DNA of 64,000 nucleotides, from positions 2,108,001-2,172,000 of the forward strand of contig NZ_AP025628.1 of the NCBI RefSeq assembly GCF_025999835.1, written 5' to 3'. The notes beneath the pieces are model-generated. The model had not been told where the DNA came from. It did no database searches and saw only the letters and a program-made list of their open reading frames with translations. This document shows positions 2,599-32,780 of the stretch, piece by piece. The translations under genes were made by a program, and so were the position numbers. Positions within the stretch are counted from its first letter, which is position 1. Each line of letters starts with the position of its first letter. The DNA comes from Caldinitratiruptor microaerophilus. Its GTDB lineage: Bacteria > Bacillota > Sulfobacillia > Symbiobacteriales > ZC4RG38.

Positions 2599-2615
2599 GG
2601 GCTCTCCCTCCTCGC

Positions 2616-4472: not shown

Positions 4473-4506
4473 GCGCGTACCTCCTCCGGATGCCGCCTGC
4501 AGACGA

Positions 4507-5407: not shown

Positions 5408-7525
5408 CTAGCCGGCCCCCCTCGAGGCCGGGTGGAGCTGCAGTCCGTCCAGGGCGGCGAGGAAGGCCCCCATCCCGACCGCACGACGCCGGGCCGGGCC
5501 GGGATCCGGTGCCACGGCGCTCCGCGCCCGCCGGCACACCGCCGCGATGGCGGCGGGGCTGAGGCCACAGGACCGCCGGGCGAGTTCGCCCAGGTCGACG
5601 CCTTCGAGGGGCAGGTCGCGAGTGTGCACCTCGTACACTTCACGCAGGTCCTCGTGGGTCAGCGGGGGGAACGGCACGCAGTAGTCGAACCGGCCGGGCC
5701 GGAGGACCGCCGGGTCCACGAGTTCGGGCCGGCTGGTGGCGGCCACCAGCACGACCTCCGGGAACTCCGCCAGGCGGTCGATCTCCCGCAGCAGCTGGGC
5801 CAGGAGCCGGTGCTGGGACCCGGTTTCCTGGCCGGTCCGCCGCGCGGCGATCGCGTCGACGTCGTCGAAGAACAGGACGCAGGGGGCGGCACGCCGGGCC
5901 CGGGCGAAGAGCTCGGCCACGGCCCGCTCGGACTCGCCCTGCCACTTCGAGTACAGGGCAGGCGCCTCGACCTCCAGGAGCGGCAGGCCGGCCTCCCCGG
6001 CGAACGCCCGGGCGACGTAGGTCTTGCCGCAACCCGGCGGGCCGACGAGGAGGATCCCCCGTCCCGGCGCCGGCGCCTCCCGGCGCAGCCACGGCTGGAG
6101 CATGCGCTTGACGGACGCCAGGCCGCCCACGTCGGCCCAGCCGAGGGCGGGCCGCTCGAGGGCCACCTCCCGCGTCGCGCTCGGCTCCACCTCCCGCAGC
6201 GCGGCGAGGAAGTCCTCGTGGCGGACCACGAGGTCGTCGAAGGAGGGGCCGTCCCCCGGCACCAGCGGCCCGTGGCTGGAGAGGTACCGCCGCATGGCCG
6301 CCATGGCCGCCTCCTGGGCGAGCGCCGCCAGGTCGGCTCCGACGAAGCCGGGTGTGCGGTCGGCGAGCTCAGCCAGGTTCACGTCGGGGGCGAGCGGCAG
6401 GCGGCGGGTGTGGATCTGGAGGATCTGCAGCCGCCCGTCCCGGTTGGGCACCCCGATCTCGATCTCCCGGTCGAAGCGGCCGGGCCGGCGGAGCGCCGGG
6501 TCGATGTTCTCCAGGAGGTTCGTGGCGCCGATCACCACGACCTGACCCCGGCCCTGGAAGCCGTCCAGGAGGGCGAGGAACTGGGCGACCAGCCGCTTCT
6601 CGACCTCGCCCGGCACCTCCGCGCGCCGCGGGGCGATGGCGTCGATCTCGTCGAAGAAGATGATGCTGGGGGCGCGGTGCTCGGCCTCGTCGAAGATCTC
6701 CCGCAGCCGGGCCTCGCTCTCGCCGTACAGCTTGCGGACCACCTCGGGGCCGTTGACGTGGATGAAGTAGGCCTGGCTCTCGGCGGCGAGGGCACGGGCC
6801 ACGAGGGTCTTCCCGGTGCCGGGCGGCCCGTAGAGGAGCACGCCCTTCGGGGGCTGCACCCCCAGCCGCTCGAAGAGGCGGGGATACCGCAGCGGCCACT
6901 CGACGATCTCCCGGATGCGGGCGAGCTCGTGGTCCAGGCCCCCCACGTCCCGGTACGAGACGCCGGTCGGCCGCTGGGAAACGATCTCGGCGTCCACGAA
7001 GGTGATGTGCGTGGTGCGGACGATCCGCACCGGGCCGTCCGGAACGGTGGCGGCGACGCGGAAGGCCGGGACAGCCGGGTGCTGCCGCGGGTCGGCGAGG
7101 ACGTTCCCCTTCAGGACGGGGACGCCGCTCAGGGACTCGACCAGCCGGGCCGTGTCCTGCGGAGCCGGGCGGGTGCCGGCGGGCACCAGCCGCGCCAGCC
7201 GGACGGTCACCGCCTTCGAACACTGGACCTTCTCGAGGCGGACGCCCTCGCCGATCCCGACCCCGGCGTTCTGCCGACCAAGCGGCCCGAGCAGCAGGAC
7301 CCGCTCGCCGACCACGTTGGTGGGCATGAACATGGCGACGGCCATGGCCGACTGCCGGCCGGTCAGGCGCACCGTGTCCCCGGGCTCGATCCCCAGCACC
7401 TTCATGTCTGCCGGGTGCAGGTAGACCGCGCCCTGGACATCCCCGCCCACGACGGCGTCCATCACCCGGAAGACCGGCTGCGAGGAGCGCCGGTGCTCGG
7501 ATGCCAGGCCTACAGCGGCGTCCAC
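5408..7525 (-). CDS. Cdc48/VAT-type AAA+ ATPase (locus 1)
   Basis: 705 residues with a GTG start 3 nt after the GntR stop, so probably translationally coupled. Layout: Cdc48 N-terminal double-psi barrel domain (about 1-175), D1 with Walker A GPPGTGKT near 230 and Walker B FFDEIDAIAPRR, then D2 with GPPGCGKT near 490. The pore loops are KLYG in D1 and KWQG in D2; aromatic residues in both rings recall archaeal VAT and predict threading of unfolded protein. Oddity: the D2 Walker B reads FFDDVDAIA, Asp replacing the usual catalytic Glu, so D2 turnover may be slow. Its steady neighbour is a 2-oxoacid oxidoreductase operon, which suggests assembly, repair or disassembly of an Fe-S/TPP enzyme; that role is inference. 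Confidence 0.88.
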   Translation of the reverse strand: MDAAVGLASEHRRSSQPVFRVMDAVVGGDVQGAVYLHPADMKVLGIEPGDTVRLTGRQSAMAVAMFMPTNVVGERVLLLGPLGRQNAGVGIGEGVRLEKVQCSKAVTVRLARLVPAGTRPAPQDTARLVESLSGVPVLKGNVLADPRQHPAVPAFRVAATVPDGPVRIVRTTHITFVDAEIVSQRPTGVSYRDVGGLDHELARIREIVEWPLRYPRLFERLGVQPPKGVLLYGPPGTGKTLVARALAAESQAYFIHVNGPEVVRKLYGESEARLREIFDEAEHRAPSIIFFDEIDAIAPRRAEVPGEVEKRLVAQFLALLDGFQGRGQVVVIGATNLLENIDPALRRPGRFDREIEIGVPNRDGRLQILQIHTRRLPLAPDVNLAELADRTPGFVGADLAALAQEAAMAAMRRYLSSHGPLVPGDGPSFDDLVVRHEDFLAALREVEPSATREVALERPALGWADVGGLASVKRMLQPWLRREAPAPGRGILLVGPPGCGKTYVARAFAGEAGLPLLEVEAPALYSKWQGESERAVAELFARARRAAPCVLFFDDVDAIAARRTGQETGSQHRLLAQLLREIDRLAEFPEVVLVAATSRPELVDPAVLRPGRFDYCVPFPPLTHEDLREVYEVHTRDLPLEGVDLGELARRSCGLSPAAIAAVCRRARSAVAPDPGPARRRAVGMGAFLAALDGLQLHPASRGAG

Positions 7526-7528
7526 GGT

Positions 7529-8236
7529 TCACCCTCTCCCGTTCTCCGCGGCGCCCAGCGCCGCCAGGTACACGTCCCGGGAGCGCCGGATGTGCCTCCG
7601 GGCGGCCGCTTCCGCCGCCTCGGGGTCGCCCACCCGGATGGCCGCCACGATCAGCTGGTGCTCCTGGTGAGCCTCCTCGATCCAGCCGGGCCGTTCGTAG
7701 TTGACCGCCGAGAACTGCTCGACGTATGTCCGCAGCGTTTGCAGCATCTCGTGGAGCCGCGGGCTGTTGGCGACGCGGTAGATCGTGTCGTTGAACTCGT
7801 TGTGGAGGCGGCGGTACTCGTCGAGGTCGGGCGGCGATCGGAGGCAGCAGCGGTCCATCTCGGCCAGCAGGCGGTCCAGGCGCTCCACGTCGGCCGGGGT
7901 GCGCCGCCGGGCGGCCATGGCCGTGACCAGCCCCTCGAGCGCGGCCCGGATCTCGTAGATGTCCAGGATGTCCTGGCGCGACATCCCGCTCACCACGAGG
8001 CCGCGCCGCGGGTACTTCTCGGCCAGACCTTCGACCTCGAGCCGCTGCAGCGCCTCCCGGACCGGCGTGCGGCTGATCCCGAGCTTCTGGGCGAGCTCCC
8101 GCTCCACCAGGCGCTCGCCCCGGGGCAGGGAGCCGTCGAGGATCGCCCGGCGGAGCACCGAGTACACGGCGTCGCGAGCCAGGACCGGGGACTGCGGGTC
8201 GAGCGCGAGGGCGGGAAGGGTGAAGTTCTGGCTCAA
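7529..8236 (-). CDS. GntR-family regulator with FCD ligand domain
   Basis: 235 residues with a TTG start 8 nt behind a GGGGG ribosome binding site. It has an N-terminal winged helix (about 20-85) with the ERELAQKLGISRTPVREAL recognition region, then an all-alpha FCD domain (about 90-225) with the usual metal-ligand pattern (D near LDEYRRLHNEFND and later His). FCD regulators normally bind small carboxylates. It is the first gene of the locus 1 operon and divergent from PEP synthase; four TTGGTAT boxes lie in or beside the gap. It probably senses a carboxylic acid and controls both directions. Confidence 0.85.
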   Translation of the reverse strand: MSQNFTLPALALDPQSPVLARDAVYSVLRRAILDGSLPRGERLVERELAQKLGISRTPVREALQRLEVEGLAEKYPRRGLVVSGMSRQDILDIYEIRAALEGLVTAMAARRRTPADVERLDRLLAEMDRCCLRSPPDLDEYRRLHNEFNDTIYRVANSPRLHEMLQTLRTYVEQFSAVNYERPGWIEEAHQEHQLIVAAIRVGDPEAAEAAARRHIRRSRDVYLAALGAAENGRG

Positions 8237-8981: not shown

Positions 8982-11399
8982 ATGCGTCCGGACAGCACCG
9001 TCCCCGTGGCGCACGCGCGGCCGGGGTGGGTCCTCCCCCTCGCCGCGGCAGGCCGCGGCGCGGCGGACCAGGTGGGCGGAAAGTGCGCCGGCCTGGGTGA
9101 ACTGATCTCACTTGGTATACCGGTGCCGGAAGGTTTCGCGGTGACCGTCCACGCGTTCCGCTACTTCCTCGAGCACAACCGGCTGCGCGAGCCGATCGCC
9201 TCCCTCCTGCGCGAGGCCGGCGCGGCCGACCCCGCCCGGCTCCAGGCGGTGAGCGCGAGGATCCGGGACCTCGTGGAGGCGCAGCCGCTGGGCGACCTGG
9301 ACGCCGCCATCCGGGCCGCGTACCGCCAGCTTGGAGGTGGGGGATGCGCCCTGGTGGCGGTCCGCAGCAGCGCCGTGGCCGAGGACCAGGTGGATGCCAG
9401 CTTTGCCGGGCAGCTGGACACGTACCTGTTCGTCCGCGGGGAGGAGGCCGTGCTGGCGGCGGTGCGCCGGTGCTTCGGTTCGGCGTTCACGGCACGGAGC
9501 CTCGCCTACCGGCGGGAGAGGGGGCTCGATCTGCTGGGCGCGGACATGAGCGTCGCGGTCCAGCGGATGGTGGTGCCGCGTAGCGCCGGCGTCCTGTTCA
9601 CCCTGGACCCGCGGACCGGCGACCGCACCGTCGTGGCCGTCGAGGCCTGCTTCGGCGCCGGTGAGAGCCTTGCCCAGGGGCGGGTGACCCCGGACCTCTA
9701 CCTGGTCGACAAGTCGGGGCCGGACGGCAGCCCGGCGGTCCGCCACCGGCGGATCGAGACGAAGGCGGTCATGACGGTCCCCGACCCGGCGGGGGGCACC
9801 CGCGAGGTCCCCGTGCCGCCGGAACTGCGGCGCCGGGCGTGCCTGACGGACGGGGAACTCCTTGAGCTCGCCCGGTGGGGGATGCGGATCGAACAGCACT
9901 ACGGCGCACCGGTCGACGTCGAGTGGGCCCTGGAGGAGGAGACCGGCCGCCTCTACATCCTCCAGGCCCGCCCGGAGACCGTCTGGAGCCGGCGCGGGCC
10001 CGCTCCGCCGGACCCCCGGGCGAACGGGGGCGGCCACCCCGAGGTGGGTCCCGCGGCCCGGGTGATCCTGCGCGGGCTCGGCGCGTCGCCCGGCGTGGCC
10101 ACCGGGCGCGTCCGGGTGATCCGCGACGTCGCGGAGATCCCCCGGTTCCGGCCGGGCGAGATCCTGGTCACCGAGATGACCACCACCGAGTGGCTCCCGG
10201 CGATGCGTGCCGCCGCGGCGCTCGTGACCGACGCGGGCGGGGTGACGTGCCACGCGGCGATCGTGTCACGGGAACTCGGGATCCCGTGCGTCGTGGGGAC
10301 CGGAAGCGCTACCCGGACGCTGGTGACGGGGCAGGAGGTCACGGTGGACGCCGTGCTGGGGACCGTCTACGAGGGTCGGGTGGACGGCACCCGGCGAGGC
10401 GCTCCGGGCGCCACGGGCACCCCCGCGGGGCCGGCGCCGGGCGCAGGTGCGCCCGGAGCGTCCGCCATCACCCCGGTGACCGCCACGCGCCTCTTCATGA
10501 TCCTCGGCAACCTGGAGCGGCTGCCGGAGGTCCGGTCGCTCCCCTTCGACGGGATCGGCATGATGCGGATCGAGTTCCTGATCGCCGAGCGGATCGGGGT
10601 GCACCCGCTGCACCTCATCGACCAGGGCCGGGCGGACGAGTTCGTCGACCGCCTCGCCGGCGGGATCGCCGAGCTGGCCGGGGCCGTGGCGCCCCGCCCG
10701 GTCATCGTGCGCTTCAGCGACCTCAAGACGAACGAGTACCGCGTGCTGCGGGGGGGAGCGGACCACGAGCCGGTCGAGGCCAACCCCATGATCGGCTGGC
10801 GGGGCGCCGCCCGGTACGTCAGCGCCGAGTACGAGGCGGCGTTCCGCCTCGAGGTCCGGGCCGTGCGCCGCGTGCGGGAGGCCGGGGGCCTGCGCAACGT
10901 CCACGTGATGATCCCCTTCGCCCGCAGGACACGGGAGGTGGAGGCCATCCACCGGATCCTCGCGGAGGAAGGGCTCCGCCGCGGGCCGGACTTCCAGGTG
11001 TGGATCATGACCGAGGTCCCCAGCAACTTCATCCTCGCCGACCGCTTCGCCCGGCTCTGCGACGGCTTCGCGATCGGCACGAACGACGTGGTCCAGACGA
11101 ACCTGGGGGTCGACCGGGACTCGGAGCTCCTCGCCCGCATGGGCTACTTCGACGAGCTCAGCCCCGCCGTGCTCGCCCCGATCGGACACCTGATCGACGC
11201 CGCCCACCGCAATCGCATCCCGGCGATGGTGTGCGGCCAGGCTCCCTCCGTGTACCCCGAGTTCTGCGAGTACGTGGTCCGCCGCGGGGCGGACATCCTC
11301 GGGCTTCAGCCCGACGCCGTGGCACGCACCCGGGAGATCGTGGCGGCCGTCGAGCAGCAGATGCTGATCGAGGGCCTGGCGGGGAGGCGGTCGCCGTGA
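8982..11399 (+). CDS. ppsA: phosphoenolpyruvate synthase
   Basis: 805 residues; ATG behind AAGGAGGAG. It makes PEP from pyruvate, ATP and water for gluconeogenesis. Domains in order: ATP-grasp PPDK N-terminal domain (GGKCAGLGEL near residue 35; RSSAVAEDQ near 128), swivelling His domain (GGVTCHAAIVSRELG, phospho-His about 424), and C-terminal PEP/pyruvate TIM barrel (TNDVVQTNLG; VCGQAPS with catalytic Cys about 751). All key residues are present. A Gly/Pro/Ala-rich linker follows the swivel domain at about 475-500. The gene overlaps the next by 4 nt and is divergent from GntR, with candidate operators upstream and within the first 50 codons. Confidence 0.93.
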   Translation: MRPDSTVPVAHARPGWVLPLAAAGRGAADQVGGKCAGLGELISLGIPVPEGFAVTVHAFRYFLEHNRLREPIASLLREAGAADPARLQAVSARIRDLVEAQPLGDLDAAIRAAYRQLGGGGCALVAVRSSAVAEDQVDASFAGQLDTYLFVRGEEAVLAAVRRCFGSAFTARSLAYRRERGLDLLGADMSVAVQRMVVPRSAGVLFTLDPRTGDRTVVAVEACFGAGESLAQGRVTPDLYLVDKSGPDGSPAVRHRRIETKAVMTVPDPAGGTREVPVPPELRRRACLTDGELLELARWGMRIEQHYGAPVDVEWALEEETGRLYILQARPETVWSRRGPAPPDPRANGGGHPEVGPAARVILRGLGASPGVATGRVRVIRDVAEIPRFRPGEILVTEMTTTEWLPAMRAAAALVTDAGGVTCHAAIVSRELGIPCVVGTGSATRTLVTGQEVTVDAVLGTVYEGRVDGTRRGAPGATGTPAGPAPGAGAPGASAITPVTATRLFMILGNLERLPEVRSLPFDGIGMMRIEFLIAERIGVHPLHLIDQGRADEFVDRLAGGIAELAGAVAPRPVIVRFSDLKTNEYRVLRGGADHEPVEANPMIGWRGAARYVSAEYEAAFRLEVRAVRRVREAGGLRNVHVMIPFARRTREVEAIHRILAEEGLRRGPDFQVWIMTEVPSNFILADRFARLCDGFAIGTNDVVQTNLGVDRDSELLARMGYFDELSPAVLAPIGHLIDAAHRNRIPAMVCGQAPSVYPEFCEYVVRRGADILGLQPDAVARTREIVAAVEQQMLIEGLAGRRSP

Positions 11400-12379
11400 G
11401 GGACGAGAGGATCCCCACCGCCACCCGGATCTACGTAAACCTTGACGGGCCCGTGACGGAGCCGCCGCTCGAGTCGCTTCCCGCCGACGGGGTCGGCCTC
11501 CTCCGGCTGGGACCGCTCCTCGCCGGCGGCCCCGACCCGGCGCACCCGATCCTGCGGGTGGAGCAGGGGCGGGGCGAGGAGCTCGCCTTCGGGCTGGCCG
11601 GCCACATCGCCCGGGTAGCCCGCGCCGTGTACCCGCGCCCCGTGTGGGTCTGCTTCAGCGACCTCACCTCGGCCGAGCTCCGGGCCCTCCCCGGCGGCGA
11701 GCGCCACGAGCCCGCGGAGAACAACCCGGCGATCGGGCGGCGCGGCTGCGCCCGGCTCGTGAGCCCGGACTACCGGCCCGCCTTCCGGCTCGAGTGCCGG
11801 GCGGTCCGGGAGGTGCGGGAGTCGGAAGGCCTTCGCAACGTCCACGTCCTCCTCCCATTCCCCCGCCTGCCGGGCGAGGTCGAGGCGGTCCAGGCGATCA
11901 TGCGAGACGAGGGCCTGGTCCGTTCCCGGGACTTCGAGGTGTGGGTCTCGGCCGAGGTGCCGAGCGCCGTCATCCTGGCCGAGGACTTCGCCCGCCTGTG
12001 CGACGGGTTCACCGTGCCGATCGAAGGCCTCGCCCGGCTCGTCCTGGCCGCCGACGGGGCGTCCGAGCGCCTGCGCCGCCTGGGCTACCCCGACCCGGCG
12101 GACGACGCCGTCCGGGAGGCCGCCCTTCGCCTCGCGGAGGCCGCGCGCCGGCACGGGCGGGCCGTGTGCGTGGCCGGGGAGGGTGGCCTCGACCCCGGCC
12201 TCGTCGATTTCCTGGTCGACCTGGGGGTGGACGCCGTGAGCGTCCCCCCGGGGGCGCTCGTTCCGACCCGCCGGCGCGTGGCGGAGGCCGAGCGGCGGCT
12301 CCTCCTCCGGCGGGTCGTCGCCGACCGCCGCGGCCGGGATCCGGCCGCCGGCCGCTGGTGGGTCTCGCATCCAACCTGA
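11396..12379 (+). CDS. stand-alone degenerate PEP synthase C-terminal domain (pseudoenzyme)
   Basis: 327 residues with a GTG start overlapping the PEP synthase stop (GTGA). It aligns along its length with the C-terminal barrel of the gene just upstream: GVGLLRLGPLLAG vs GIGMMRIEFLIAE, PVWVCFSDLTSAELRAL vs PVIVRFSDLKTNEYRVL, NNPAIGRRGCAR vs NPMIGWRGAAR, GLRNVHVLLPF vs GLRNVHVMIPF. The catalytic parts have decayed: TNDVVQTNLG became PIEGLARLVLA and VCGQAPS became VAGEGGL. So it is a duplicated domain without the catalytic Cys, probably a regulatory or scaffolding partner of PEP synthase. It is not a sequence error, since the frame is intact and coupled. Confidence 0.8.
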   Translation: MRDERIPTATRIYVNLDGPVTEPPLESLPADGVGLLRLGPLLAGGPDPAHPILRVEQGRGEELAFGLAGHIARVARAVYPRPVWVCFSDLTSAELRALPGGERHEPAENNPAIGRRGCARLVSPDYRPAFRLECRAVREVRESEGLRNVHVLLPFPRLPGEVEAVQAIMRDEGLVRSRDFEVWVSAEVPSAVILAEDFARLCDGFTVPIEGLARLVLAADGASERLRRLGYPDPADDAVREAALRLAEAARRHGRAVCVAGEGGLDPGLVDFLVDLGVDAVSVPPGALVPTRRRVAEAERRLLLRRVVADRRGRDPAAGRWWVSHPT

Positions 12380-12397
12380 TCACGGGAGGGCATGAAC

Positions 12398-13426
12398 ATG
12401 AGGAAGATCCGGGTCGGAATCACCGGGTACGGGACGATCGGGCGCCGGGTGGCGGACGCGGTGGCGAGGCAACCGGACATGGAGCTCGTGGGCATCGCGA
12501 AGGTGAGGCCCGACTACAAGGCACGCCTCATCGCCGAGCGAGGCTACCCGCTCTACGGCGCCGACGAGGAGTCCCTCGCCGCGCTGCGCGCCGCCGGGCT
12601 CCCGGCCCGGGGCGTCGTGGCCGATCTCGTGGCGGGATGCGACGTGGTGGTCGACACCCTGCCCCCCAAGCAGGCCAGCCGGCTCCTGCCCATCTACCAG
12701 GCCTCGGAGGCCCGGGTGATCTTCCAAGGCGGCGAGCCGGCCGGCATCGCCGAGGTATCGTTCAACGCCCAGAGCAACTACGAGGCGGCGGTAGGGCGGC
12801 GCACGGTGCGGGTGGTCTCCTGCAACACGACGGGCCTCTGCCGGGCGCTCGGCACCATCGACCGCGCCTTCGGGGTCGAGAAGGCGCGGGTGGTGCTAGC
12901 CCGCAAGGCCACCGATCCGGACGACCCGGACACCGGCCCGGTCGACGCCGTGGTGCTCGACCCCGCCCCGGCCCAGCTCCCGTCCCACCACGGCCGGAGC
13001 GTTGCCACGGTGCTCCCGCACCTGAAGGTCATCTCGATGGCGGCGAAGGTCCCCACCACCCACGCCCACTTCCACAGCCTCCTGATCACCGTGAAGGACC
13101 GGAACGTGACCGCAGGGGCCGTGGTCCGCGCCTTCGAGGAGGCCACCCGCGTCGTCCTCCTCGACAGCCGCGAGGGGTTCCGTTCGACGGCGCAGGTCTT
13201 CGACTACGCCCGGGAGCTCGGCCGCAGCCGGTCCGACCTGTACGAGCTGGCAGTGTGGCGGGACTCCGTCACGGTCGTGGACGACGAGGTGTACTTCTTC
13301 ATGGCCGTGCACCAGGAAGCGATTGTGATCCCGGAGAACGTCGACGCCATCCGGGCGGTCACGGGAACCATGGACCGGGACGAGTCGATCCGCCTCACCA
13401 ACCGGACGCTCGGGATCCTCAAGTGA
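12398..13426 (+). CDS. type II (archaeal-type) glyceraldehyde-3-phosphate dehydrogenase
   Basis: 342 residues. It interconverts glyceraldehyde-3-phosphate and 1,3-bisphosphoglycerate with NAD(P). The nucleotide motif GITGYGTIGRRVAD is at the N-terminus and the catalytic Cys is about residue 142 in VVSCNTTGLCR, the hallmark of the archaeal class, unlike bacterial GapA (SCTTN). VDTLPPKQ and PTTHAHFHS are also class-typical. I chose the second ATG (12398) because GGAGGG is 7 nt upstream of it but only 1 nt from the ATG at 12392. It lies 12-18 nt after the PEP synthase pair, so the three genes form a gluconeogenic operon. The 3' end overlaps a convergent small gene by 8 nt. Confidence 0.9.
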   Translation: MRKIRVGITGYGTIGRRVADAVARQPDMELVGIAKVRPDYKARLIAERGYPLYGADEESLAALRAAGLPARGVVADLVAGCDVVVDTLPPKQASRLLPIYQASEARVIFQGGEPAGIAEVSFNAQSNYEAAVGRRTVRVVSCNTTGLCRALGTIDRAFGVEKARVVLARKATDPDDPDTGPVDAVVLDPAPAQLPSHHGRSVATVLPHLKVISMAAKVPTTHAHFHSLLITVKDRNVTAGAVVRAFEEATRVVLLDSREGFRSTAQVFDYARELGRSRSDLYELAVWRDSVTVVDDEVYFFMAVHQEAIVIPENVDAIRAVTGTMDRDESIRLTNRTLGILK

Positions 13427-13631: not shown

Positions 13632-14054
13632 TCACCCCTCCTCGCGCAGCCACGGCCGCAGCAGGGCGTGCACCTGCACGTGCAGCAGCAGGAACCCGAT
13701 GCCGTAGACCCCTCCCACCGCCGCCTGGAAGGTGAGAAAGGCGCCCGCACCCTGGCGTCCGAAGGCCGGCTGGCCGGATCCCCACGCCAGCACGACCTGC
13801 TGGAGGGTCCGGGCCACCGGAAAGGCCAGCGCCCAGTAGGCCACGACCTCCGCGAGGCCGCCGGGCCGCACCCGCCCGAGTTCGAGCAGGAGATCATAGC
13901 CCGCCCCCAGGAGCGCCAGCGGTATCCCGAGGGTGAAAGCCGCCAGCGCGGCGGTGGCGGGCGGGGCGCCGGCCAGCGCGGCCAGCGCCCCCGCCACGAC
14001 GCCGGTGAGAAGACCTGTCAGGAGCCCGGTGACGGTTCGCCTGAGCAGCCTCAC
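13632..14054 (-). CDS. hypothetical membrane protein, 140 residues
   Basis: Four hydrophobic segments (about 8-30, 33-55, 66-88, 100-125) with short charged ends. Not recognised. It lies between the Nramp-like transporter gene and the 69-residue membrane protein, all on one strand, so it is probably co-transcribed with the oxidoreductase of locus 2. Confidence 0.6.
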   Translation of the reverse strand: MRLLRRTVTGLLTGLLTGVVAGALAALAGAPPATAALAAFTLGIPLALLGAGYDLLLELGRVRPGGLAEVVAYWALAFPVARTLQQVVLAWGSGQPAFGRQGAGAFLTFQAAVGGVYGIGFLLLHVQVHALLRPWLREEG

Positions 14055-14102: not shown

Positions 14103-15563
14103 TCAGCCCTTCGGGATGGCCCCGAGGAAGAGGACGCTGTAGAAGAGCCCGCCCAGGTAGAACACCGTGGCAACCCCGAGGAGGAGGTTCGTGAGCCACC
14201 CGGGCCGCAGCGGCCGGGGCAGCAGGCGGTTGTTGGTGAAGAGCAGCAGCAGCGAGTAGGCGCCCATCACGAAGGCAGAGAGAAATGCGAGCGTGTCGAG
14301 GATGAACGCCGGACCCCTGGGCGAGCCGGCGAGGAGCGTGAGGATGCCGAAGCCGATGACCCCCCAGAGGAAGCCGTAGTAGATCTTGCTCATGCTCCAG
14401 CGGCGGGCGCCCGGCACGAAGTAGTACGTCATGTCCGCCTGGCCCCGGGAGAAGGCGTCGAAGATGCCGAAGGTCATCTTCCACCCGACGATGGCCACGA
14501 ACACGAAGAAGAGCGCCCGCGTGACCGACCCGCCCACCGAGCCGAAGGCGTTCGCCATGCCGGCCAGGGCGGCCGTCTGCTTGCCGGCGAGGATGAGGTC
14601 CCGCACCTGCGGGTCCATCCGGGCGGCGGACATCGCCATGATCGTGTAGATGATGGTGGTCAGCATCGTGAGGCCCCAGAACAGGACCCAGGCGTCGAAC
14701 GCGTTCCACCGCCGCCAGGCCGCCCACTTCCGCATCTCGCCCGGGTCACTGGTGTCGAAGGTGAAGCCCCGGCTGGGCATGGTCTCCTCCTCGCCCCTGG
14801 CGAGAAGGCCCTTGATCCGCGGGATGTAGGCACCCATGCCCGCGCCCTTGTCCCGGAGGTACAGCGTGTACCACATCTGCTGCATCCCCGAGGGGCCGGC
14901 AAAGGCGATGGAGCCCACGATCACCGGGAACCACTTGGCGCTCAGCACCTCCGCCGGCAGGTAGCCGAAGGAGAACAGGCCGCGGATCGTGTCCCAGAGG
15001 TCGCCCCAGGTCCCGACCATGGCGGCGATGATCGCCGACCCGATGACCAGGACGGAGATGAGGGTGGACAGCACCCCTTCGACGACGCTGTACACCTGTT
15101 TCGAGAACGTCAGGATCAGCCCGATCAGGATGAGCCCGCCAATTGCCCCGACCTGCCAGGGAATCCCCGTCAGCGTCTGGAGGGACTCCGCGCCGAGGGA
15201 GACGTGGCCGGGCCAGATGTACACCAGGATGGCGACCGCCCAGAAGAACCACATCACCAGGCGGCTCAGGCGGGCAGCACCGAAGAAGATGCTTTCCCCG
15301 GTGGCCATCGCCCAGCGGGCCATCTCCATCATCACGACCAGCTGCAGGGTGACGCCGACGAGGAACAGCCAGCGGATCTCCGGGCCGAAGAGGATCACCA
15401 GACGCGGCCACATGAACGTCTCGCCGAGGCCGACGCCCAGGGCGGTCAGGACCATGCCCGGGCCGAGCAGGTGCACCGCGCTGGGGGCCTCGGGCAGGGA
15501 CCGGATCGGGAGCGGTTCCTCCCGCCCCATCGGGACGGCACCGGGTTTGACGGCCTCCACCAT
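14103..15563 (-). CDS. Nramp-superfamily-like transporter lacking metal motifs
   Basis: 486 residues, about 11 hydrophobic helices. The first helix, GPGMVLTALGVGLGETF, matches the Nramp helix 1 pattern, but the metal-binding DPGN is replaced by GETF. The helix 6 MPH motif is absent (GPSGMQQMWY in the equivalent place). A cytoplasmic loop (about 235-285) is unusually long and charged. It follows the beta subunit gene by about 57 nt. Members without DPGN/MPH are unlikely to carry Mn or Fe in the usual way. The operon suggests import of the oxidoreductase substrate or a cofactor, but this is inference. Confidence 0.7.
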   Translation of the reverse strand: MVEAVKPGAVPMGREEPLPIRSLPEAPSAVHLLGPGMVLTALGVGLGETFMWPRLVILFGPEIRWLFLVGVTLQLVVMMEMARWAMATGESIFFGAARLSRLVMWFFWAVAILVYIWPGHVSLGAESLQTLTGIPWQVGAIGGLILIGLILTFSKQVYSVVEGVLSTLISVLVIGSAIIAAMVGTWGDLWDTIRGLFSFGYLPAEVLSAKWFPVIVGSIAFAGPSGMQQMWYTLYLRDKGAGMGAYIPRIKGLLARGEEETMPSRGFTFDTSDPGEMRKWAAWRRWNAFDAWVLFWGLTMLTTIIYTIMAMSAARMDPQVRDLILAGKQTAALAGMANAFGSVGGSVTRALFFVFVAIVGWKMTFGIFDAFSRGQADMTYYFVPGARRWSMSKIYYGFLWGVIGFGILTLLAGSPRGPAFILDTLAFLSAFVMGAYSLLLLFTNNRLLPRPLRPGWLTNLLLGVATVFYLGGLFYSVLFLGAIPKG

Positions 15564-15620: not shown

Positions 15621-16586
<966 letters not shown>

Positions 16587-17789
16587 TCACATCGGCAGAT
16601 CGAAGGGAAGCCAGTACCCGTCCCGCTCCACCTTCCCCGTCCTCGCCACCGTCTGCAGGACGTGGGCCATGTGGTAGAACTCCTCGCGGCTGATGACCTC
16701 CCCGCCGAGACCGGCGACGAAGCCGACGATCTTCGTCCGGTCGCCGAGCCCGTAGCAGGCGGCGCGCACCTCGGCTGCGAGCGGGCCCGCCCCGGCCGCC
16801 ACGCCGAAGTCCACGCTGTTGTCCACGACCCCGACCGCCTTGAACCGGGAGAGGCTCTCCCGCAACTCCTGCGTCGGGAACGGCCGGATCCAGCGCAGGC
16901 GAATGACCCCCACCTTGTCGCCCAGGTTGCGGAGCTTCTGCGCCACCGTCCGGGCCGTGAGGGCGTGCGCGCCCTGGAGCACGAAGACGACCTCGGCGTC
17001 GTCGGTGAGGTACTCATCGAGGAAGGGGGCGTAGTTGCGGCCGAAGGCCCGGTTGAAGTCCTCGGTCACCTCGTAGATGACCCGGCGCGCCTCTTCCATG
17101 GCCTGCTGACGCTGGTACTGCAGCGGAGGGCCCATCTCGGGCTCGATCTGCGGGCCCAGGGACATGGGATGCCTCGGGTCGAGCACGTGGCGGGGCCTGT
17201 AGGGCGGCAGCCACTCCCGCACCTGCTCGTCGGGGTAGATCTCCACCTCGTCCGCCACGTGCGAGACGAAGTACCCGTCCTGGCAGGAGAACTGGGGAAG
17301 GCTGACCCGGGGGTCCTCGCCGACCCGGTATAGGAAGATCGTGTTGTCGAGCGCTTCCTGCGGGGTCGCCGCCCAGCCCATGATCCAGCCCTGGTTGCGG
17401 AAGGTCATCGCGTCCGTGTGCTCGGACCCGAAGTCGCCGGGCGGGTCGAGGGTGCGGTCGGCGATCGCCATCTGCACGGGCAGCCGCTCGCCGGAGATGG
17501 GGGAGTACACCTCGGCCGCGTAGGTGACCCCGACGCCGGAGCTGCCAGTGAAGGTGCGGGCACCGGAAGCGGCGGCGCCGTACACGATGCTCAGCTGGTC
17601 ATGCTCGCCCGCCCCGTGCAGGAACTCGGCGTCCAGCTCGCCGTCGGCGATCATCCGGGCCAGTTCCGACATGATGCCCGTGTAGGGCCGGATGGGGTAG
17701 GACGAGATGACGTCCACGTCGGCGAGGCGCACCCCGTGGGCGACCGCCACGCACCCGGTGATCAGGCGGCGCTTCGTGGCGACGGCCAT
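16587..17789 (-). CDS. oxalate oxidoreductase-like alpha subunit (locus 2)
   Basis: 400 residues; ATG behind GGGAGGGAG. PorA-type alpha subunit. SSYPIRPYTGIMSEL has Arg34 in place of the Thr of pyruvate enzymes; IADRT gives Arg112 and PPGDFG gives Asp119-Phe120. These offsets equal Arg31, Arg109, Asp116 and Phe117, the oxalate-binding and switch-loop residues of the Moorella enzyme as I recall them, shifted by 3. TGSSGVGVTYAAE is the conserved domain I loop. The gene order gamma-delta, alpha, beta and the sizes also fit oxalate oxidoreductase, which splits oxalate into two CO2 and reduces ferredoxin. Confidence 0.88.
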   Translation of the reverse strand: MAVATKRRLITGCVAVAHGVRLADVDVISSYPIRPYTGIMSELARMIADGELDAEFLHGAGEHDQLSIVYGAAASGARTFTGSSGVGVTYAAEVYSPISGERLPVQMAIADRTLDPPGDFGSEHTDAMTFRNQGWIMGWAATPQEALDNTIFLYRVGEDPRVSLPQFSCQDGYFVSHVADEVEIYPDEQVREWLPPYRPRHVLDPRHPMSLGPQIEPEMGPPLQYQRQQAMEEARRVIYEVTEDFNRAFGRNYAPFLDEYLTDDAEVVFVLQGAHALTARTVAQKLRNLGDKVGVIRLRWIRPFPTQELRESLSRFKAVGVVDNSVDFGVAAGAGPLAAEVRAACYGLGDRTKIVGFVAGLGGEVISREEFYHMAHVLQTVARTGKVERDGYWLPFDLPM

Positions 17790-17801
17790 GCTGCTCCCTC
17801 C

Positions 17802-18758
17802 CTAGACGGCGAAATCGAGCTCGGGGACGTCCTTGAAGGCCTCGGTGGGGCAGACCTGCGTGCAGATGCCGCAGCCCTTGCAGTACTCGTAGTCGACCTG
17901 GACCGCCGTCTCCGTCAGCGTGATGCAGGCGTCCGGGCAGTCCACGACGCAGATCATGCACTGCGTGCACAGCTCAGGGGTGAGGACCGGCCGCGTGATC
18001 CGCCACGTGCCGGTCACCATCTTGTCGTTGCGGCGCTCCGGCGCGTCGACGGTCCCGGCGAAGGGCGCCTCGAGGTACCGCTTCGGCTGGGAGTCGCCGG
18101 CCCAGGGCTTGCCGAGGCCCCGCTCGAAGAGCTCCTGCGCCGGGGTGATGGTGGCCGTGTCGTACCCCCGCTGCGCGGCGGGCGGGTCCTTGACCACGGC
18201 CAGGAGGGACTCGAGCGTCGCCAACCCCGTGGCCCGGACGACCGCCCCGGCCAGGGGCCCTGCCCACCCTCCGCCGATGCCGGTCGCATCCGTCGCGCCT
18301 TCCTGCCCCGACAGGCTCTTGACGGCGCTGGAGATCCCCGAGGCGTCCACCGTCACGATCGACTTGAGGTTGGGGTGGCGCGGCAGGAAGCGCGCCAGCT
18401 CGGCGGCAGGCCGCTTCGAGTTCACCACCAGCACGGCGCCCGGGGTGATGTGGTCCAGGACGGGGCCACGGATGAGGGATTCCTCGACGATCACCACCAC
18501 GTCGTGGGCGTAGTTCTCGTAAAGGAAGCGCGACTCGATCGGCTCCGCGCTGATCCGCGCGTAGGCCGTCACGGGGACGTTCACGCGGTCGGGCAGGTCC
18601 ACGTAGTTCTCGAAGGCCTGGACGTGCTTTCCCTCACGCATCGCCGCATTCGCCAGGGCGAAGGCCACGTCGCGCCCTTCCTTGCCCAGGATGACACCCC
18701 GGCTCCACACGGTGACCTGCTTGAGGGTCGGCTCGGCGAACAGGTCCTCAGGCCGCAT
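17802..18758 (-). CDS. oxalate oxidoreductase-like gamma-delta fusion subunit (locus 2)
   Basis: 318 residues. The N-terminal gamma domain (about 1-235) begins with VWSRGVILGKEGRDVAFAL. The C-terminal ferredoxin domain (about 255-318) has two 4Fe-4S motifs, CTQCMICVVDCPDAC and CKGCGICTQVCPTEA. A gamma-delta fusion of about 315 residues is the arrangement of Moorella oxalate oxidoreductase. I start at ATG 18758, 8 nt behind GGAGGGG; the upstream GTG has no spacing. It follows the Cdc48-type gene by 29 nt and precedes alpha by 12 nt. Confidence 0.88.
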   Translation of the reverse strand: MRPEDLFAEPTLKQVTVWSRGVILGKEGRDVAFALANAAMREGKHVQAFENYVDLPDRVNVPVTAYARISAEPIESRFLYENYAHDVVVIVEESLIRGPVLDHITPGAVLVVNSKRPAAELARFLPRHPNLKSIVTVDASGISSAVKSLSGQEGATDATGIGGGWAGPLAGAVVRATGLATLESLLAVVKDPPAAQRGYDTATITPAQELFERGLGKPWAGDSQPKRYLEAPFAGTVDAPERRNDKMVTGTWRITRPVLTPELCTQCMICVVDCPDACITLTETAVQVDYEYCKGCGICTQVCPTEAFKDVPELDFAV

Positions 18759-18787
18759 GGGCAGCACCCCTCCTTCACGGCTTGCCG

Positions 18788-20980
18788 TCAGCGTGCTTCC
18801 ACGCGTCGCGGCGGCGGCATCCCTCCGCTACCTCCTTCCATCTCCGCCAGCGCCAACCGGAAGTGGCGGGCGCCGACGCGGGGGGCAGGGGCCGTCCCCG
18901 GCGCTGCCGGCGGCCGGCCGCCTGCTCCCTCCGCTTCCTCGAACCACTCGTCGGCCGCCAGGAGAGCGGCCCGCTGGCAGAGCGCACGCAGTTCGGCACC
19001 GGACCAGCCCGCGGTGGCCTCCGCGAGCGCCCCCAGGTCCACGTCCCCGGCCAGCGGCAGCCGGCGGGTGTGCACCGCGAGGATCTCCTCCCGCTCGGCC
19101 ACGTCCGGCAGCGGGAACTCCAGGATGTAGTCGAACCGGCCCGGTCGCAGCAGGGCGGGCTCCAGGCGATCCGGCCGGTTCGTCGCGGCGATCACCAGGA
19201 CGCCGGGGTGCTCCCGGATCCCGTCCATCTCGGCCAGGAGCTGGCTGACCGCGCGCTCGCCCGCCTCGGTGGCGCCGGCTGCGCCCCGGGCCGGGGCCAG
19301 GGCGTCGAGTTCGTCGATGAACAGAATGCAGGGTGACGCCTGGCGCGCCTTGCGGAACAGGTCCCGCAGCGCCTTCTCCGTTTCGCCCATCCACTTGCGG
19401 AAGAGGGATGGGCCTTCGACCCCGATGAAGTTCGCCCGCACGCTCGAGGCCAGGGCCCGCGCCACCAGCGTCTTGCCGGTCCCCGCGGGGCCGGTGAAGA
19501 GGATGCCCCGGGGCAGGTGGAGGCCGAATCCCGCCAGCAGGTCACCGTACCGCAGGGGACGCTCCACGAGCACCCGGAGGCGGGTCCGGATCTGGCTGAG
19601 CCCGCCCACGTGCTCCCAGGTCTCCCGCGGCCGCTCCAGCACCAGCTCCCGCGTGGCGCTCGGCTCCACCTCGCCCAGGGCGTGCCGGAAGTCGGCCATG
19701 GTCACCTGGATCCCGCCGGAATCGGCGCCCGCCTCGGGGTCCAGCCGGATCTCCGGCAGCAGGCGCCTCAGCGCCGCCATGCCGGCCTCGCGGCAGAGCG
19801 CCGCGAGGTCGGCGCCCACGAAGCCGTGGGTCACGTCCGCCAGTTCCTCGAGGTCGACATCCGCAGCCAGGGCCATGCCGCGCGTGTGGATGCGGAGGAT
19901 GGCCAGGCGGCCGTCGCGATCCGGCACCGGGATGGGGATCTCCCGGTCGAACCGGCCGGGGCGCCGCAGCGCCGGATCGAGCAGCTCCGGGATGTTCGTG
20001 GCGCCCACGACGATGACGTCCCCGCGCTCCTCCAGCCCGTCCATGAGCGCGAGCAGCTGCCCCACGACGCGCTTTTCCACGTCACCGTGGACCGCCTCGC
20101 GCCGGGGGGCCAGCGCGTCGAGTTCGTCGAGGAAGATCACGCTGGGGGCGTGCCGGCGCGCCTCGTCGAATACCTCCCGCAGCCGGGCCTCGCTCTCGCC
20201 GTAGTACTTGCGCATGATCGCGGGGCCGTCGACGTGGACGAAGTGCAGCCGGCTGTCGGCGGCGATGGCCCGGGCGATGAGGGTCTTGCCGGTCCCCGGC
20301 GGGCCGTAGAGGAGGACGCCCCGGGGCGGCCGCACGCCGAGCCGGCGGAACAGCGCGGGGTACTTGAGCGGAAGCTCCACGAGCTCGCGCACCCGGGCCA
20401 GCTCGCGGTCGAGCCCGCCCACGTCCTCGTAGGTGACCGCGCCCGCCCGCGGCGGCTCCACGTCGACCGCCGCGATGCGGATCCGCGTGCCCTCCTGGAC
20501 AAGCACCGCCCCGCGCGGGGCCGTGCCGGTCACCGTGAAGAGGAGCGGCTCCCCGCCGAACCGCGGGACCGCCACCACGTCCCCGGCCACCACCGCGCAG
20601 CCCAGGAGACGGCGGTGGAGGAGCGGCACGGGGTCCTCTCCGTGGGCGATCCCACCGGGGTCCGACGGGGTCAGGACCACCGCCCGCGCCGGGCTCACCC
20701 CGATGCGCTGGACCGTGACCTCCTCGTCGAGTCCGACCCCGGAGTTCTGGCGCGTCGTGCCGTCGATCCGGAGCGTGCGGGGCGGCGTGCCGGAGTCGGC
20801 GGGCAGCGCCCGGGCGACCGTCGCCCGCAACCCCGCGATCTGCACGACCTCGCCGGGGCTCAGGCCCAGGTACGTCATCTCGGCTACTCCCAGGCGGGCG
20901 ATGCCCCGGTGGAGGTCCTCAGGCAGGGCTTCGGCGACGCGCAGGCGGAGGCTCCGCCGGCCCGTCTCGGGCTCCTCCAC
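18788..20980 (-). CDS. Cdc48/VAT-type AAA+ ATPase (locus 2)
   Basis: 730 residues with GTG start behind AGGGGGGTG. Cdc48 N-domain (about 1-180), D1 Walker A GPPGTGKT near 225 with Walker B FLDELDALAPRR, D2 GPAGTGKT near 495 with FIDELDALAPARG. Pore loops KYYG (D1) and KWMG (D2) are aromatic, like archaeal VAT, indicating an unfoldase. Unlike the locus 1 paralogue, both Walker B motifs have the catalytic Glu. The C-terminal tail (about 690-730) is Gly/Pro-rich. It is the first gene of the locus 2 operon; nothing in the sequence names its substrate. Confidence 0.9.
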   Translation of the reverse strand: MEEPETGRRSLRLRVAEALPEDLHRGIARLGVAEMTYLGLSPGEVVQIAGLRATVARALPADSGTPPRTLRIDGTTRQNSGVGLDEEVTVQRIGVSPARAVVLTPSDPGGIAHGEDPVPLLHRRLLGCAVVAGDVVAVPRFGGEPLLFTVTGTAPRGAVLVQEGTRIRIAAVDVEPPRAGAVTYEDVGGLDRELARVRELVELPLKYPALFRRLGVRPPRGVLLYGPPGTGKTLIARAIAADSRLHFVHVDGPAIMRKYYGESEARLREVFDEARRHAPSVIFLDELDALAPRREAVHGDVEKRVVGQLLALMDGLEERGDVIVVGATNIPELLDPALRRPGRFDREIPIPVPDRDGRLAILRIHTRGMALAADVDLEELADVTHGFVGADLAALCREAGMAALRRLLPEIRLDPEAGADSGGIQVTMADFRHALGEVEPSATRELVLERPRETWEHVGGLSQIRTRLRVLVERPLRYGDLLAGFGLHLPRGILFTGPAGTGKTLVARALASSVRANFIGVEGPSLFRKWMGETEKALRDLFRKARQASPCILFIDELDALAPARGAAGATEAGERAVSQLLAEMDGIREHPGVLVIAATNRPDRLEPALLRPGRFDYILEFPLPDVAEREEILAVHTRRLPLAGDVDLGALAEATAGWSGAELRALCQRAALLAADEWFEEAEGAGGRPPAAPGTAPAPRVGARHFRLALAEMEGGSGGMPPPRRVEAR

Positions 20981-26609: not shown

Positions 26610-28139
26610 TCAGGTGCCGTAACGAGTCCCCCGGGCCTCGGCCACGACCACGCGGCGGCTACGCAGCATGCCGGCCACGACCGGCGCCAGGAGCGAGACG
26701 ACCGTCAGGAGCAGCAGCACCAGGGCGATCGGGCGCGTGACGAAGATCGCCGGCGAGCCCCGCGACAGCAGGAACGACCGCCGCAGGGCCGTCTCCAGGT
26801 CGGGACCCAGCACCAGCGCGAGGATCAGCGGCGCCACGGGCACGCGGAGCTTGGTGAGGAAGTACCCCAGGATCCCCGCCACCAGGACGACCCCCACGTC
26901 GAACAGGCTGTTGTCGATGGCGTACCCGCCCACCAGGCTGAGGACCGCCACCAGCACCATCAGGATCGGCGCCGGCAGGGCCAGCACCTTCACCACCGCC
27001 GGGATGGCGAGCGTGTTGATCGCCAGCAGCATCAGGTTGGCGATGTAGAAGCTGGCGATGAGCCCCCACACGAAGTCGGGGTTGTCCCGGAACAGGAGCG
27101 GCCCCGGGCGAAGCCCCCACATCATCAGCCCGCCCATCAGCACCGCCGTCGTCCCCGAACCCGGGATCCCCAGCGACAGGAGCGGCACGTACGCGGCGAT
27201 GGCGGCGGCGTTGTTCGCGCTCTCCGGCGCGGCCACGCCTTCGATCGCCCCGCGGCCGAACTTCGCCGGGTTTCGGGAGACCTGCCGTTCCACCGTGTAC
27301 GCCAGGAACGACGACGTGGTCGCCCCGGCACCCGGCAGGAGCCCCACGAAGAAGCCGACGACCGTCCCCCGCACGATGGCCCACACCGACGACGCCCACT
27401 CGGCCGCCGACGGCAGGACGTTCCGGATCGAGAGACCTGTCCACTGCGTGGACCAGCGCTCCTGCCTCTCCAGCCACACGAGGACCTGGGTGATGCCGAA
27501 GAGCCCGATCACGACCGGCAGGAGCGGGATGCCGTCCAGGAGCTCGATGCTCCCGAAGTTGAACCGGGCGTTCCCGTTCACGCTGTCCATCCCGACCAGC
27601 GCCAGCAGGAGGCCGATCACGCCCGAGATGAGGCCCTTGACCGGCGACTCCCCGGTGAGCCACCCCAGGCTGGTGAGCGCCAGCAGCATCAGCATCGCCA
27701 TCTCCGGCGGCCCGAAGCGGAGCCCGAACCGGGCCAACGGCGGCGCGAAGAAGCTGAGCATGATGATGGCGAACGTGCCGGCGACGAACGAGCCGACCGC
27801 CGCCACGAAGAGCGCCTGGCCGGCCCGGCCCTGCTTGGCCAGCATGTGACCGTCGAGCCCGGTCATGATGGCGGCGGAGTCACCCGGGATGTCGATCAGC
27901 ACCGCGCTGATCGTGCTCCCGTACATGACCCCGTAGTAGATGCCGCTCAGCATGATGATCGCGGCCGTCGGGTCCATCCCGAACGTGAGCGGCAGCAGGA
28001 GCGCCACCCCCGAGACGGAGCCGATCCCCGGCAGCGCCCCGATCACCTCCCCCGCCACCACCCCGATGACGGCGAAGAGGAGGTGGTTCGGCTCGAGGGC
28101 GACCGCAAACCCTCTCAGCAGGTAGTCCCAGGTGCTCAC
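26610..28139 (-). CDS. tctA: tripartite tricarboxylate transporter large permease TctA
   Basis: 509 residues, about 11-12 membrane helices, GTG start behind GGAGGTGG. Signature segments ALPGIGSVSGVALLLPLTFG and YYGVMYGSTISAVLIDIPG identify TctA; a repeated inverted half has LLPGAGATTSSFLAY and LSLGIPGSGTTAVLMG. It works with TctB and the binding protein TctC, driven by an ion gradient. Substrate of this family: citrate or other carboxylates; not decidable here. It follows tctB by 12 nt. Confidence 0.92.
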   Translation of the reverse strand: MSTWDYLLRGFAVALEPNHLLFAVIGVVAGEVIGALPGIGSVSGVALLLPLTFGMDPTAAIIMLSGIYYGVMYGSTISAVLIDIPGDSAAIMTGLDGHMLAKQGRAGQALFVAAVGSFVAGTFAIIMLSFFAPPLARFGLRFGPPEMAMLMLLALTSLGWLTGESPVKGLISGVIGLLLALVGMDSVNGNARFNFGSIELLDGIPLLPVVIGLFGITQVLVWLERQERWSTQWTGLSIRNVLPSAAEWASSVWAIVRGTVVGFFVGLLPGAGATTSSFLAYTVERQVSRNPAKFGRGAIEGVAAPESANNAAAIAAYVPLLSLGIPGSGTTAVLMGGLMMWGLRPGPLLFRDNPDFVWGLIASFYIANLMLLAINTLAIPAVVKVLALPAPILMVLVAVLSLVGGYAIDNSLFDVGVVLVAGILGYFLTKLRVPVAPLILALVLGPDLETALRRSFLLSRGSPAIFVTRPIALVLLLLTVVSLLAPVVAGMLRSRRVVVAEARGTRYGT

Positions 28140-28151
28140 GCCTCCACCTCC

Positions 28152-28592
28152 TCAGATGCCCAGAAGACCCACCGGCAGCGGCACCTTGAGCCAGTAGCTG
28201 AAGATGAGGTAGACCCCGCCGCCCGTACACAGCATCACGAGGAGGCCGGTGCGCCAGGGGTACCGGCCCACGAGCCGCGTCCAGAGGAGCGCGAAGAGGG
28301 ACAGCGCCAGAAGCATGCCGAGGTAGTTCATGAGAAGTGCCGTACCGATCAAGGCCGCCATCCCCAGCAGCGCGGCGCGCAGATCCCCCTTCCCCCACAG
28401 GCGCTCTCCTCGCCCCCGGGTGCCGATCCACAGCCACACGCCGAGGATCGCCGCCAGCCCACCGACCAGGATCGGGAAGAAACCCGTGCCCGGACCGGTG
28501 GTGGAGGTCCAGTAGCCGTAACGCCAGCCCTGCCACGTGACCGCGAGGCCGACGAGCAACAGGATCGAGGCCAGCACTCTGTCCGGGTGCAT
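28152..28592 (-). CDS. tctB: tripartite tricarboxylate transporter small permease TctB
   Basis: 146 residues, four membrane helices. ATG behind GAGGAGGGA. TctB proteins are poorly conserved; size, helix pattern (GTGFFPILVGGLAAILGVWLW is typical) and position between tctC and tctA support the call. Confidence 0.82.
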   Translation of the reverse strand: MHPDRVLASILLLVGLAVTWQGWRYGYWTSTTGPGTGFFPILVGGLAAILGVWLWIGTRGRGERLWGKGDLRAALLGMAALIGTALLMNYLGMLLALSLFALLWTRLVGRYPWRTGLLVMLCTGGGVYLIFSYWLKVPLPVGLLGI

Positions 28593-28708
28593 GTGGTGTC
28601 CCTCCTCGGGCGCCCTCCCCCCGCCGGGCCGGGGCGCAAGGGCGGGGCCTCCGCCCCGCCCTCACCCCGGCGTCCGCGGCCGAGACTCGTGCCTTCCGGC
28701 AGCCGGCG

Positions 28709-29761
28709 CTACTTGATCACGCCGATGTCCTTGAGGATCTGCGCGTACCGGGGCTCCTCTTCGGCGATGAGCTTCTTGAAGTCTTCTGGCCCCAGGTAGC
28801 GGATCGTCAGGCCGTTCTTCTTGGCGTAACGCTCCTGCCAGCCCGGATCCTCGGTGACCTTCTTGAGCGTGTCGGCCCAGAACTTCACGGCGTCCGCCGG
28901 CATGTCGGGCGGGCCGACCACCCCGCGGAACTGGCGGAACACCACGTCGAGGCCCGACTCCTTGAAGGTGGGGACGTCCGGGAACATCGGCATGCGCTCC
29001 GGGGCCGCCACCGCGATCGGGCGGACCAGGCCGGCCTCGATCTGCGACATCGCCTCGTTCGGGTTGGCCCAGGCCACGTCGACCTGCTTGCCGAGCAGGT
29101 TCGTCATGACCTCGCCGCCGCTCTCGAACGGGATGTAGTTGAGCTTGACGCCGGCGGCCTTCTCCACGATGCCGGTGAGCATGTGGTCCTCGGCGCCGGT
29201 GGCGGTCCCGCCGATGCTGACGGCCTTCTCACCGCTCCTGGCCTTGTTGATGAAGTCCTGAACCGTCTTGAACGGCGAGTCCTTGGTGACCACCAGGAGG
29301 AACTCGTCCATCGCCAGGTTCGCCAGGGGGGTGAACGTGCTCGCCTTGATGCCGCCCTGCACCGTCAGGGGCGCGGACACCTGGCCGCTGATGAACGTCA
29401 TGATCGTGTACGCGTCGCCCTTCTTCTGGGCCACGTAAGCGCCGCCCACCTGGCCGCTGGACCCGGGCTTGTTGACGACGACCACCGGCTGGGACAGGGC
29501 CTTGGTGTCCTGCAGGGACTGGACGATGTTGCGTGCCAGCACGTCGCTGCCGCCGCCCGCGGCGTAGGGTACGACGAACTCGATCGGCTTGTCCGGGTAC
29601 GACGCCTTCGCCTGGGCCTGCGGCTGGGTCTGGCCCGACGGCTGCGTCTGGGCCTGGCTCCCCCCGGCCTGCGGCTTGGTTCCACCTCCTCCCCCACACC
29701 CGGCGAGAACCATCGCCACCACGCCGGCAGCCAACAGGGCCACGAACCTCTTCCCTCGCAT
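28709..29761 (-). CDS. tctC: tripartite tricarboxylate transporter substrate-binding lipoprotein TctC
   Basis: 350 residues from ATG 29761 behind GGGAGGG. N-terminal lipoprotein signal ends in LAGC (Cys 22), followed by a Gly/Gln/Pro spacer of about 25 residues. The mature part is a Bug/TctC periplasmic-binding fold: YPDKPIEFVVPYAAGGGSDV and later VDVAWANPNEAM. Anchored outside the membrane, it delivers ligand to TctAB. It lies 116 nt before tctB. The ligand pocket Asp/Gly loop is present but does not reveal the ligand. Confidence 0.92.
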   Translation of the reverse strand: MRGKRFVALLAAGVVAMVLAGCGGGGGTKPQAGGSQAQTQPSGQTQPQAQAKASYPDKPIEFVVPYAAGGGSDVLARNIVQSLQDTKALSQPVVVVNKPGSSGQVGGAYVAQKKGDAYTIMTFISGQVSAPLTVQGGIKASTFTPLANLAMDEFLLVVTKDSPFKTVQDFINKARSGEKAVSIGGTATGAEDHMLTGIVEKAAGVKLNYIPFESGGEVMTNLLGKQVDVAWANPNEAMSQIEAGLVRPIAVAAPERMPMFPDVPTFKESGLDVVFRQFRGVVGPPDMPADAVKFWADTLKKVTEDPGWQERYAKKNGLTIRYLGPEDFKKLIAEEEPRYAQILKDIGVIK

Positions 29762-30023
29762 CGCTCTCCCTCCCAAACTTGATTGCGAAGCTTGAGCGGC
29801 ACCCCCGACCGGGGTCGGCGCCGCGCCCCCCCTGAGCTTGGCGTGGTCGGCCCCCTTCCGGACTCACCCGGCGCACCACTCGGGCATACGAATGATTTGG
29901 CTATCCCCTTACGACCTTTTCACTAGTCAGACGCAAGCAAGGACAGTACGGCCCGGGGACCGTCCGGAAGCGGGTCTTGCTCTGCGGCGCGCCGGGCCGG
30001 CGCCCGGCGCGGCCGCTCCCTCG

Positions 30024-32732: not shown

Positions 32733-32780
32733 GTCCCCACCCCTTTGCCGGTCCGGGTCGCGTGCGGCCACGGTGGCACC

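Follow-up and report, generated by a model that had tools for sequence, protein, structure and literature searches.

In the genome of Caldinitratiruptor microaerophilus two gene clusters for 2-oxoacid:ferredoxin oxidoreductases (OFORs) raise the question whether both enzymes act on oxalate, and to which acceptor each of them passes the electrons. Both clusters are located on the minus strand of a window of 64,000 nucleotides (G000:C1:2108001-2172000, 72% GC), which is the whole stretch of DNA analysed here; cluster A comprises positions 262-5184 and cluster B positions 15621-18767. The degradation of oxalate is usually tracked by the genes oxc, frc and oxdC. In a 2023 survey of oxalotrophy the word oxidoreductase is absent (PMC10192776), and a gut study set oxalate oxidoreductase (OOR) aside because of too little information (PMC8062136). 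A sequence-only reading of the window had proposed oxalate-type enzymes in two copies. On the evidence presented here the window probably holds two OORs dependent on thiamine diphosphate (ThDP) and iron-sulfur clusters, of which the cluster B enzyme would reduce ferredoxin and the cluster A enzyme would reduce NAD+ via FAD.

Cluster B is of the Moorella type and consists of a gamma-delta fusion subunit bearing two 4Fe-4S motifs (17802-18767), an alpha subunit (alpha1, 16587-17789) and a beta subunit (beta1, 15621-16586, likely start at 16571), all on the minus strand. The three subunits exceed the cut-offs of the NCBIfam OOR models with 810 bits for alpha (NF045791, cut-off 500), 612 bits for beta (NF045792, cut-off 590) and 573 bits for gamma-delta (NF045790, the delta model, cut-off 230). 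Among solved structures, the OOR of Moorella thermoacetica (5C4I) is the top PDB match for the two alphas as well as the two betas of the window, far ahead of the pyruvate enzymes. Alpha1 is 69% identical to chain A (E 8.8e-189), beta1 matches chain C with E 2e-157, and the best PDB match of gamma-delta is chain B. The likeness in layout and subunit size to the Moorella enzyme, which the sequence-only reading had noticed, holds with 321, 400 and 316-321 amino acids for gamma-delta, alpha and beta versus 315, 395 and 314 in 5C4I, and all pocket residues are shared as well.

Cluster A differs from the Moorella OOR by split gamma and delta subunits and by an additional flavoprotein. Its genes, also on the minus strand, encode an OOR-type gamma without the ferredoxin half (4507-5184), the flavoprotein (2616-4472), an OOR-type alpha (alpha2, 1381-2598) with a TTG start preceded by GAGGAGGGAG, and an OOR-type beta (beta2, 262-1350). 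Alpha2 shares 54% identity with 5C4I chain A and passes the alpha model (545 bits, cut-off 500); beta2 matches chain C with E 8e-117 and stays below its cut-off (438 versus 590), as does gamma (178 versus 230), the latter because the subunit is split. Gamma covers positions 14-207 of the 316 in the delta model and residues 507-569 of the flavoprotein cover positions 257-316, i.e. the two are complementary halves of the same model. A three-subunit enzyme with fused gamma-delta is thus absent from cluster A, and the delta half resides on the flavoprotein instead. Clostridium, too, has OOR loci with separate gamma and delta subunits, L036 for example. Since beta and gamma do not reach their cut-offs, cluster A is filed as a variant inside the OOR clade and not as a plain OOR. 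The cysteine motifs for the 4Fe-4S cluster of beta (TCAGC, GPTGC and (A/T)PC(P/Q)KG) are retained in both betas. A predicted structure of alpha2 (AlphaFold) has 5C4I as its best fold match (TM 0.86); its pocket loop is of low confidence, so that the model is silent on the pocket residues.

These residues can be read from the alignment. In the Moorella OOR, Arg31 gives rise to a unique YPIRP motif, is a feature of oxalate binding and serves together with Asp116 a bait-and-switch mechanism, and Arg109 is the sole residue common to this OOR and a Sulfolobus enzyme (PMC5020499). Alpha1 reads SSYPIRPYTG and ADRTLDPPGDFG, and its R34, R112 and D119-F120 align with R31, R109 and D116-F117 of Moorella; the equivalents in alpha2 are R41, R119 and D126-F127. 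Both alphas carry YPIRPY with Arg in place of Thr, followed by the equivalents of R109, D116 and F117 at +78, +85 and +86, in agreement with the motif and the spacing given by the sequence-only reading. Its choice of diagnostic residues stood in part. R31 and F117 belong, with Y33, D112, P113, G118 and E120, to a set that all 84 alphas of the OOR clade possess and that none of 23 other OFOR alphas has, a count which for R31 is partly a matter of construction, because 80 of the OOR loci were found by a pattern containing IRPYT, and which for D112, F117 and the rest is free of such selection. The complete set is present, too, in three alphas (L090-L092) that were found by an unbiased profile and not by this pattern. 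R109 and D116 are the weaker diagnostics, since R109 is shared by all alignable non-OOR alphas, pyruvate enzymes included, and D116 by a few outgroup members.

Gene order, membership of the subunits in their families, residues and phylogeny are direct observations, and the last of these was obtained from 90 alphas (IQ-TREE, LG+C20, quick mode, SH-aLRT support). Both window alphas fall inside one OOR clade of 71 rows with a support of 100, apart from all sampled YPITP-type enzymes and hence not among the pyruvate or other 2-oxoacid clades, a placement that the sequence-only reading had named as one that would refute it. Alpha1 is placed at the base of a mainly Bacillota clade holding 5C4I and Moorella stamsii (support 83), and alpha2 in a clade of eight rows with Actinomycetota (support 100). 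The superfamily PF01855 is common to OOR and pyruvate enzymes, and one could take both enzymes for 2-oxoacid:ferredoxin oxidoreductases of the ordinary kind, for pyruvate or another substrate, in which the Arg is there by chance. This is hardly conceivable in view of the tree, the family models and the diagnostic columns, by which such an identity is ruled out. The PFOR of Methanosarcina acetivorans (9BT4) has the same fold and belongs to the same superfamily, but it reads YPITP, lacks D112 and F117 and is only about 32% identical to the window alphas, compared to 69 and 54% for the OOR; moreover, six other PF01855 loci in the genome could fill such roles.

One or both enzymes might use the same Arg pocket for another small dicarboxylate-like 2-oxoacid, e.g. 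glyoxylate, mesoxalate or oxamate, and a deeper sister of the OOR clade, the alpha L093, retains R31 in YPIRPYDS, yet DPPGDFG is replaced by DDPGAFG, so that R31 by itself need not mean oxalate. The L093 gene (locus L119, G023:C49:40000-58000) adjoins an OxlT-like MFS family gene and a GntR gene, and its product possibly has another dicarboxylate specificity. The transporters also differ among the OOR operons. However, both window alphas possess the full OOR residue set and an oxalate/formate-type antiporter occurs in related operons, which makes the use of another acid quite improbable.

Oxalate as the substrate of both enzymes is further supported by the antiporters in related operons and by the missing oxalyl-CoA decarboxylase. 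The antiporter in the OOR operon L022 passes the oxalate/formate antiporter model (398 bits, cut-off 335), and of 33 OOR loci of the Moorella type, 13 contain a member of its MFS family. Elsewhere the OOR loci encode a member of the lactate-permease family, as is the case in Moorella, or Tct proteins. The MFS protein of the actinobacterial operons matches the oxalate/formate antiporter only weakly. In the Caldinitratiruptor genome no oxalyl-CoA decarboxylase exceeds the cut-off (best match 197 bits, cut-off 739), and the same was found in six of seven actinobacterial genomes with cluster A-type operons, the completeness of which is not stated. The canonical CoA route was rejected for Caldinitratiruptor, as the CoA-transferase at 30796-32037 likewise passes no cut-off for formyl-CoA or oxalate CoA-transferases.

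Within the window, cluster B is followed by a gene for an Nramp-family transporter (14103-15563, minus strand; NF037982 397 bits, cut-off 50), a candidate transporter for the cluster B substrate, and by a gene for a small protein (13632-14054, minus strand) without match in Pfam or NCBIfam. Homologues of both (57 and 45% identity, respectively) are located in the same arrangement right behind the OOR operon L084 of Actinomadura. Neither the Nramp nor the Tct family is specific for oxalate. Another cluster with TctA and TctC transporter genes is located inside the window at 26610-29776, close to genes for an enoyl-CoA hydratase (30024-30812), the family III CoA-transferase mentioned above and a GntR-family protein (32034-32855).

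The second part of the question concerns the acceptor of cluster A. The sequence-only reading had recognised an NAD(P)H-linked module at one locus, and this module is indeed encoded between gamma and alpha. The flavoprotein (NF009410 550 bits, cut-off 516) is a GltD-like protein with an N-terminal 4Fe-4S domain (Fer4_20), FAD and pyridine-nucleotide Rossmann folds (Pyr_redox_2, PF07992) and the C-terminal OOR delta ferredoxin domain. The loss of arginines together with a nearby acidic residue in a Rossmann fold is the usual sign of a preference for NAD+ over NADP+. Behind the second Rossmann motif, where NADP-type proteins have YRR, all eight members in the alignment, i.e. cluster A and seven actinobacterial proteins, read (S/A)LE; YRR occurs in each of the five solved relatives aligned and is retained in three betaproteobacterial GltD-like proteins of the same alignment. 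NAD+ is therefore predicted as the acceptor and, judged by this one motif, is more likely than NADP+. The closest solved relatives of the module, Nfn-type and formate-dehydrogenase-linked proteins, have the same fold, and both enzymes could be OORs of which the cluster A flavoprotein uses NADP+ or bifurcates electrons to two acceptors like Nfn. This appears unlikely, as none of the eight members has the YRR that the five solved relatives share, and no second flavin subunit was seen in the operon.

An OFOR that passes electrons via a GltD-like flavoprotein to NAD+ is known in the phenylglyoxylate:NAD+ oxidoreductase (PadEFGHI), in which gamma, delta and the flavoprotein are separate subunits. 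Cluster A would work towards NAD+ in a comparable way but has delta and flavoprotein fused. The relationship does not extend to the alphas: both stay below the cut-off of the PadG-type alpha model, with 261 bits for alpha1 and 259 for alpha2 versus 700.

From the sequences we infer substrate, direction of the reaction, NAD+ preference and the roles of the transporters and AAA+ proteins. Both enzymes would bind oxalate at the equivalents of Arg31 and Arg109; ThDP would attack it, and two CO2 would be released without coenzyme A, while two electrons would pass via the 4Fe-4S clusters of beta and delta. In cluster B they would be delivered to ferredoxin, as in Moorella. In cluster A the fusion of the delta ferredoxin domain to the GltD-like FAD module suggests a path from ThDP via the beta cluster and the delta clusters to FAD and NAD+, and the reaction would be oxalate + NAD+ + H+ -> 2 CO2 + NADH.

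Each of the clusters has its own gene for a CDC48-like AAA+ ATPase on the minus strand. The first (18788-20980; TIGR01243 813 bits, cut-off 803) is a double AAA+ ATPase encoded 20 bp upstream of gamma-delta, the second (5408-7525; 672 bits, below the same cut-off) belongs to cluster A; both proteins consist of CDC48_N and two AAA domains and are 49% identical to each other. Among OOR loci with enough flank, all 24 of the Moorella type and 22 of 26 of the Proteobacteria/Nitrospirota type have a CDC48-like gene upstream in the same orientation, that is 46 of 50 loci of the ferredoxin type across phyla. No such gene adjoins the actinobacterial cluster A-type operons (0 of 5 with enough flank), and none was found in 20 control regions of 9-18 kb around other PF01855 alphas (L130-L149), six of them from the Caldinitratiruptor genome. 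From the constancy of this linkage a role of the ATPase in assembly or rescue of OOR may be guessed. In the open-access literature, a scope that left the primary OOR papers outside, no earlier mention of the AAA+ neighbour or of NAD-linked OOR relatives was found.

At the head of cluster A a GntR/FCD-type regulator is encoded (7529-8236, minus strand; PF00392 and PF07729), whose family is represented at 20 of 24 Moorella-type and 22 of 26 other OOR loci. The opposite end reaches the border of the window with the start of a gene for a small conserved orphan protein (1-237, minus strand), which continues outside. Beyond the border (L115, genome 2090001-2108300) two more orphans are followed by TctA-TctC-TctB; Tct genes are also part of two of the actinobacterial operons. 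The three orphans (L115:17356-18237) recur in actinobacterial operons of the cluster A type in matching gene order and belong to no family over cut-off. For one of them (F17) an all-beta structure is predicted (pLDDT 78), with no PDB match below E 0.001.

The Actinomycetota operons L073, L078, L080-L082, L084, L085 and L087 share with cluster A the order gamma, flavoprotein-delta, alpha and beta, an alpha identity of 72-79% and the downstream orphans, and differ from it by the missing CDC48-like neighbour. Judged by these sequences, cluster A seems to have been acquired from Actinomycetota or to be shared with them. The spread of OOR-type alphas covers, at the least, Bacillota, Pseudomonadota, Nitrospirota and Actinomycetota, and in a sample of 398 genomes of the phylum, 29 of which bear OOR, only the Caldinitratiruptor genome has two OOR alphas.

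The host differs from Moorella in its pathway, as this genome contains no match for the acetyl-CoA synthase CdhC, by which an acetogen-type host was rejected, and has a RuBisCO large subunit (642 bits, cut-off 438). The latter is encoded at locus L129 (genome 196127-197011), next to a LysR-type gene and the first part of a gene for a P-loop kinase-like protein, and suggests a Calvin cycle, into which, as a speculation, NADH and CO2 from OOR could be fed. Between the two clusters an archaeal-type (type II) glyceraldehyde-3-phosphate dehydrogenase (12392-13426; NF003251 445 bits, cut-off 185) is encoded in this bacterial genome. Oxalate is a strong inhibitor of PPDK. A PPDK/PEP-synthase-like gene (8982-11399) is followed by one with the PEP-utiliser C-terminal domain only (11396-12379), and PPDK-family genes recur near the OOR loci L041, L046, L056, L061 and L079.

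The branch of cluster A is unstudied and mainly actinobacterial, and it appears to pass electrons to NAD+ and not to ferredoxin. A more far-reaching and rather doubtful proposal is that cluster A and the related actinobacterial operons represent the first OORs to reduce NAD+, working in one step without ferredoxin or CoA in aerobic actinomycetes, and that ferredoxin-type OORs need a dedicated CDC48-like ATPase, perhaps similar to Rubisco activase. The near-constant AAA+ neighbour makes a function in maturation or rescue directly testable. An NAD+-linked OOR, if true, would give aerobic actinomycetes a direct reaction from oxalate to NADH, a point of relevance to the oxalate-carbonate pathway; such an enzyme could also serve in practice to make NADH from an inexpensive acid.
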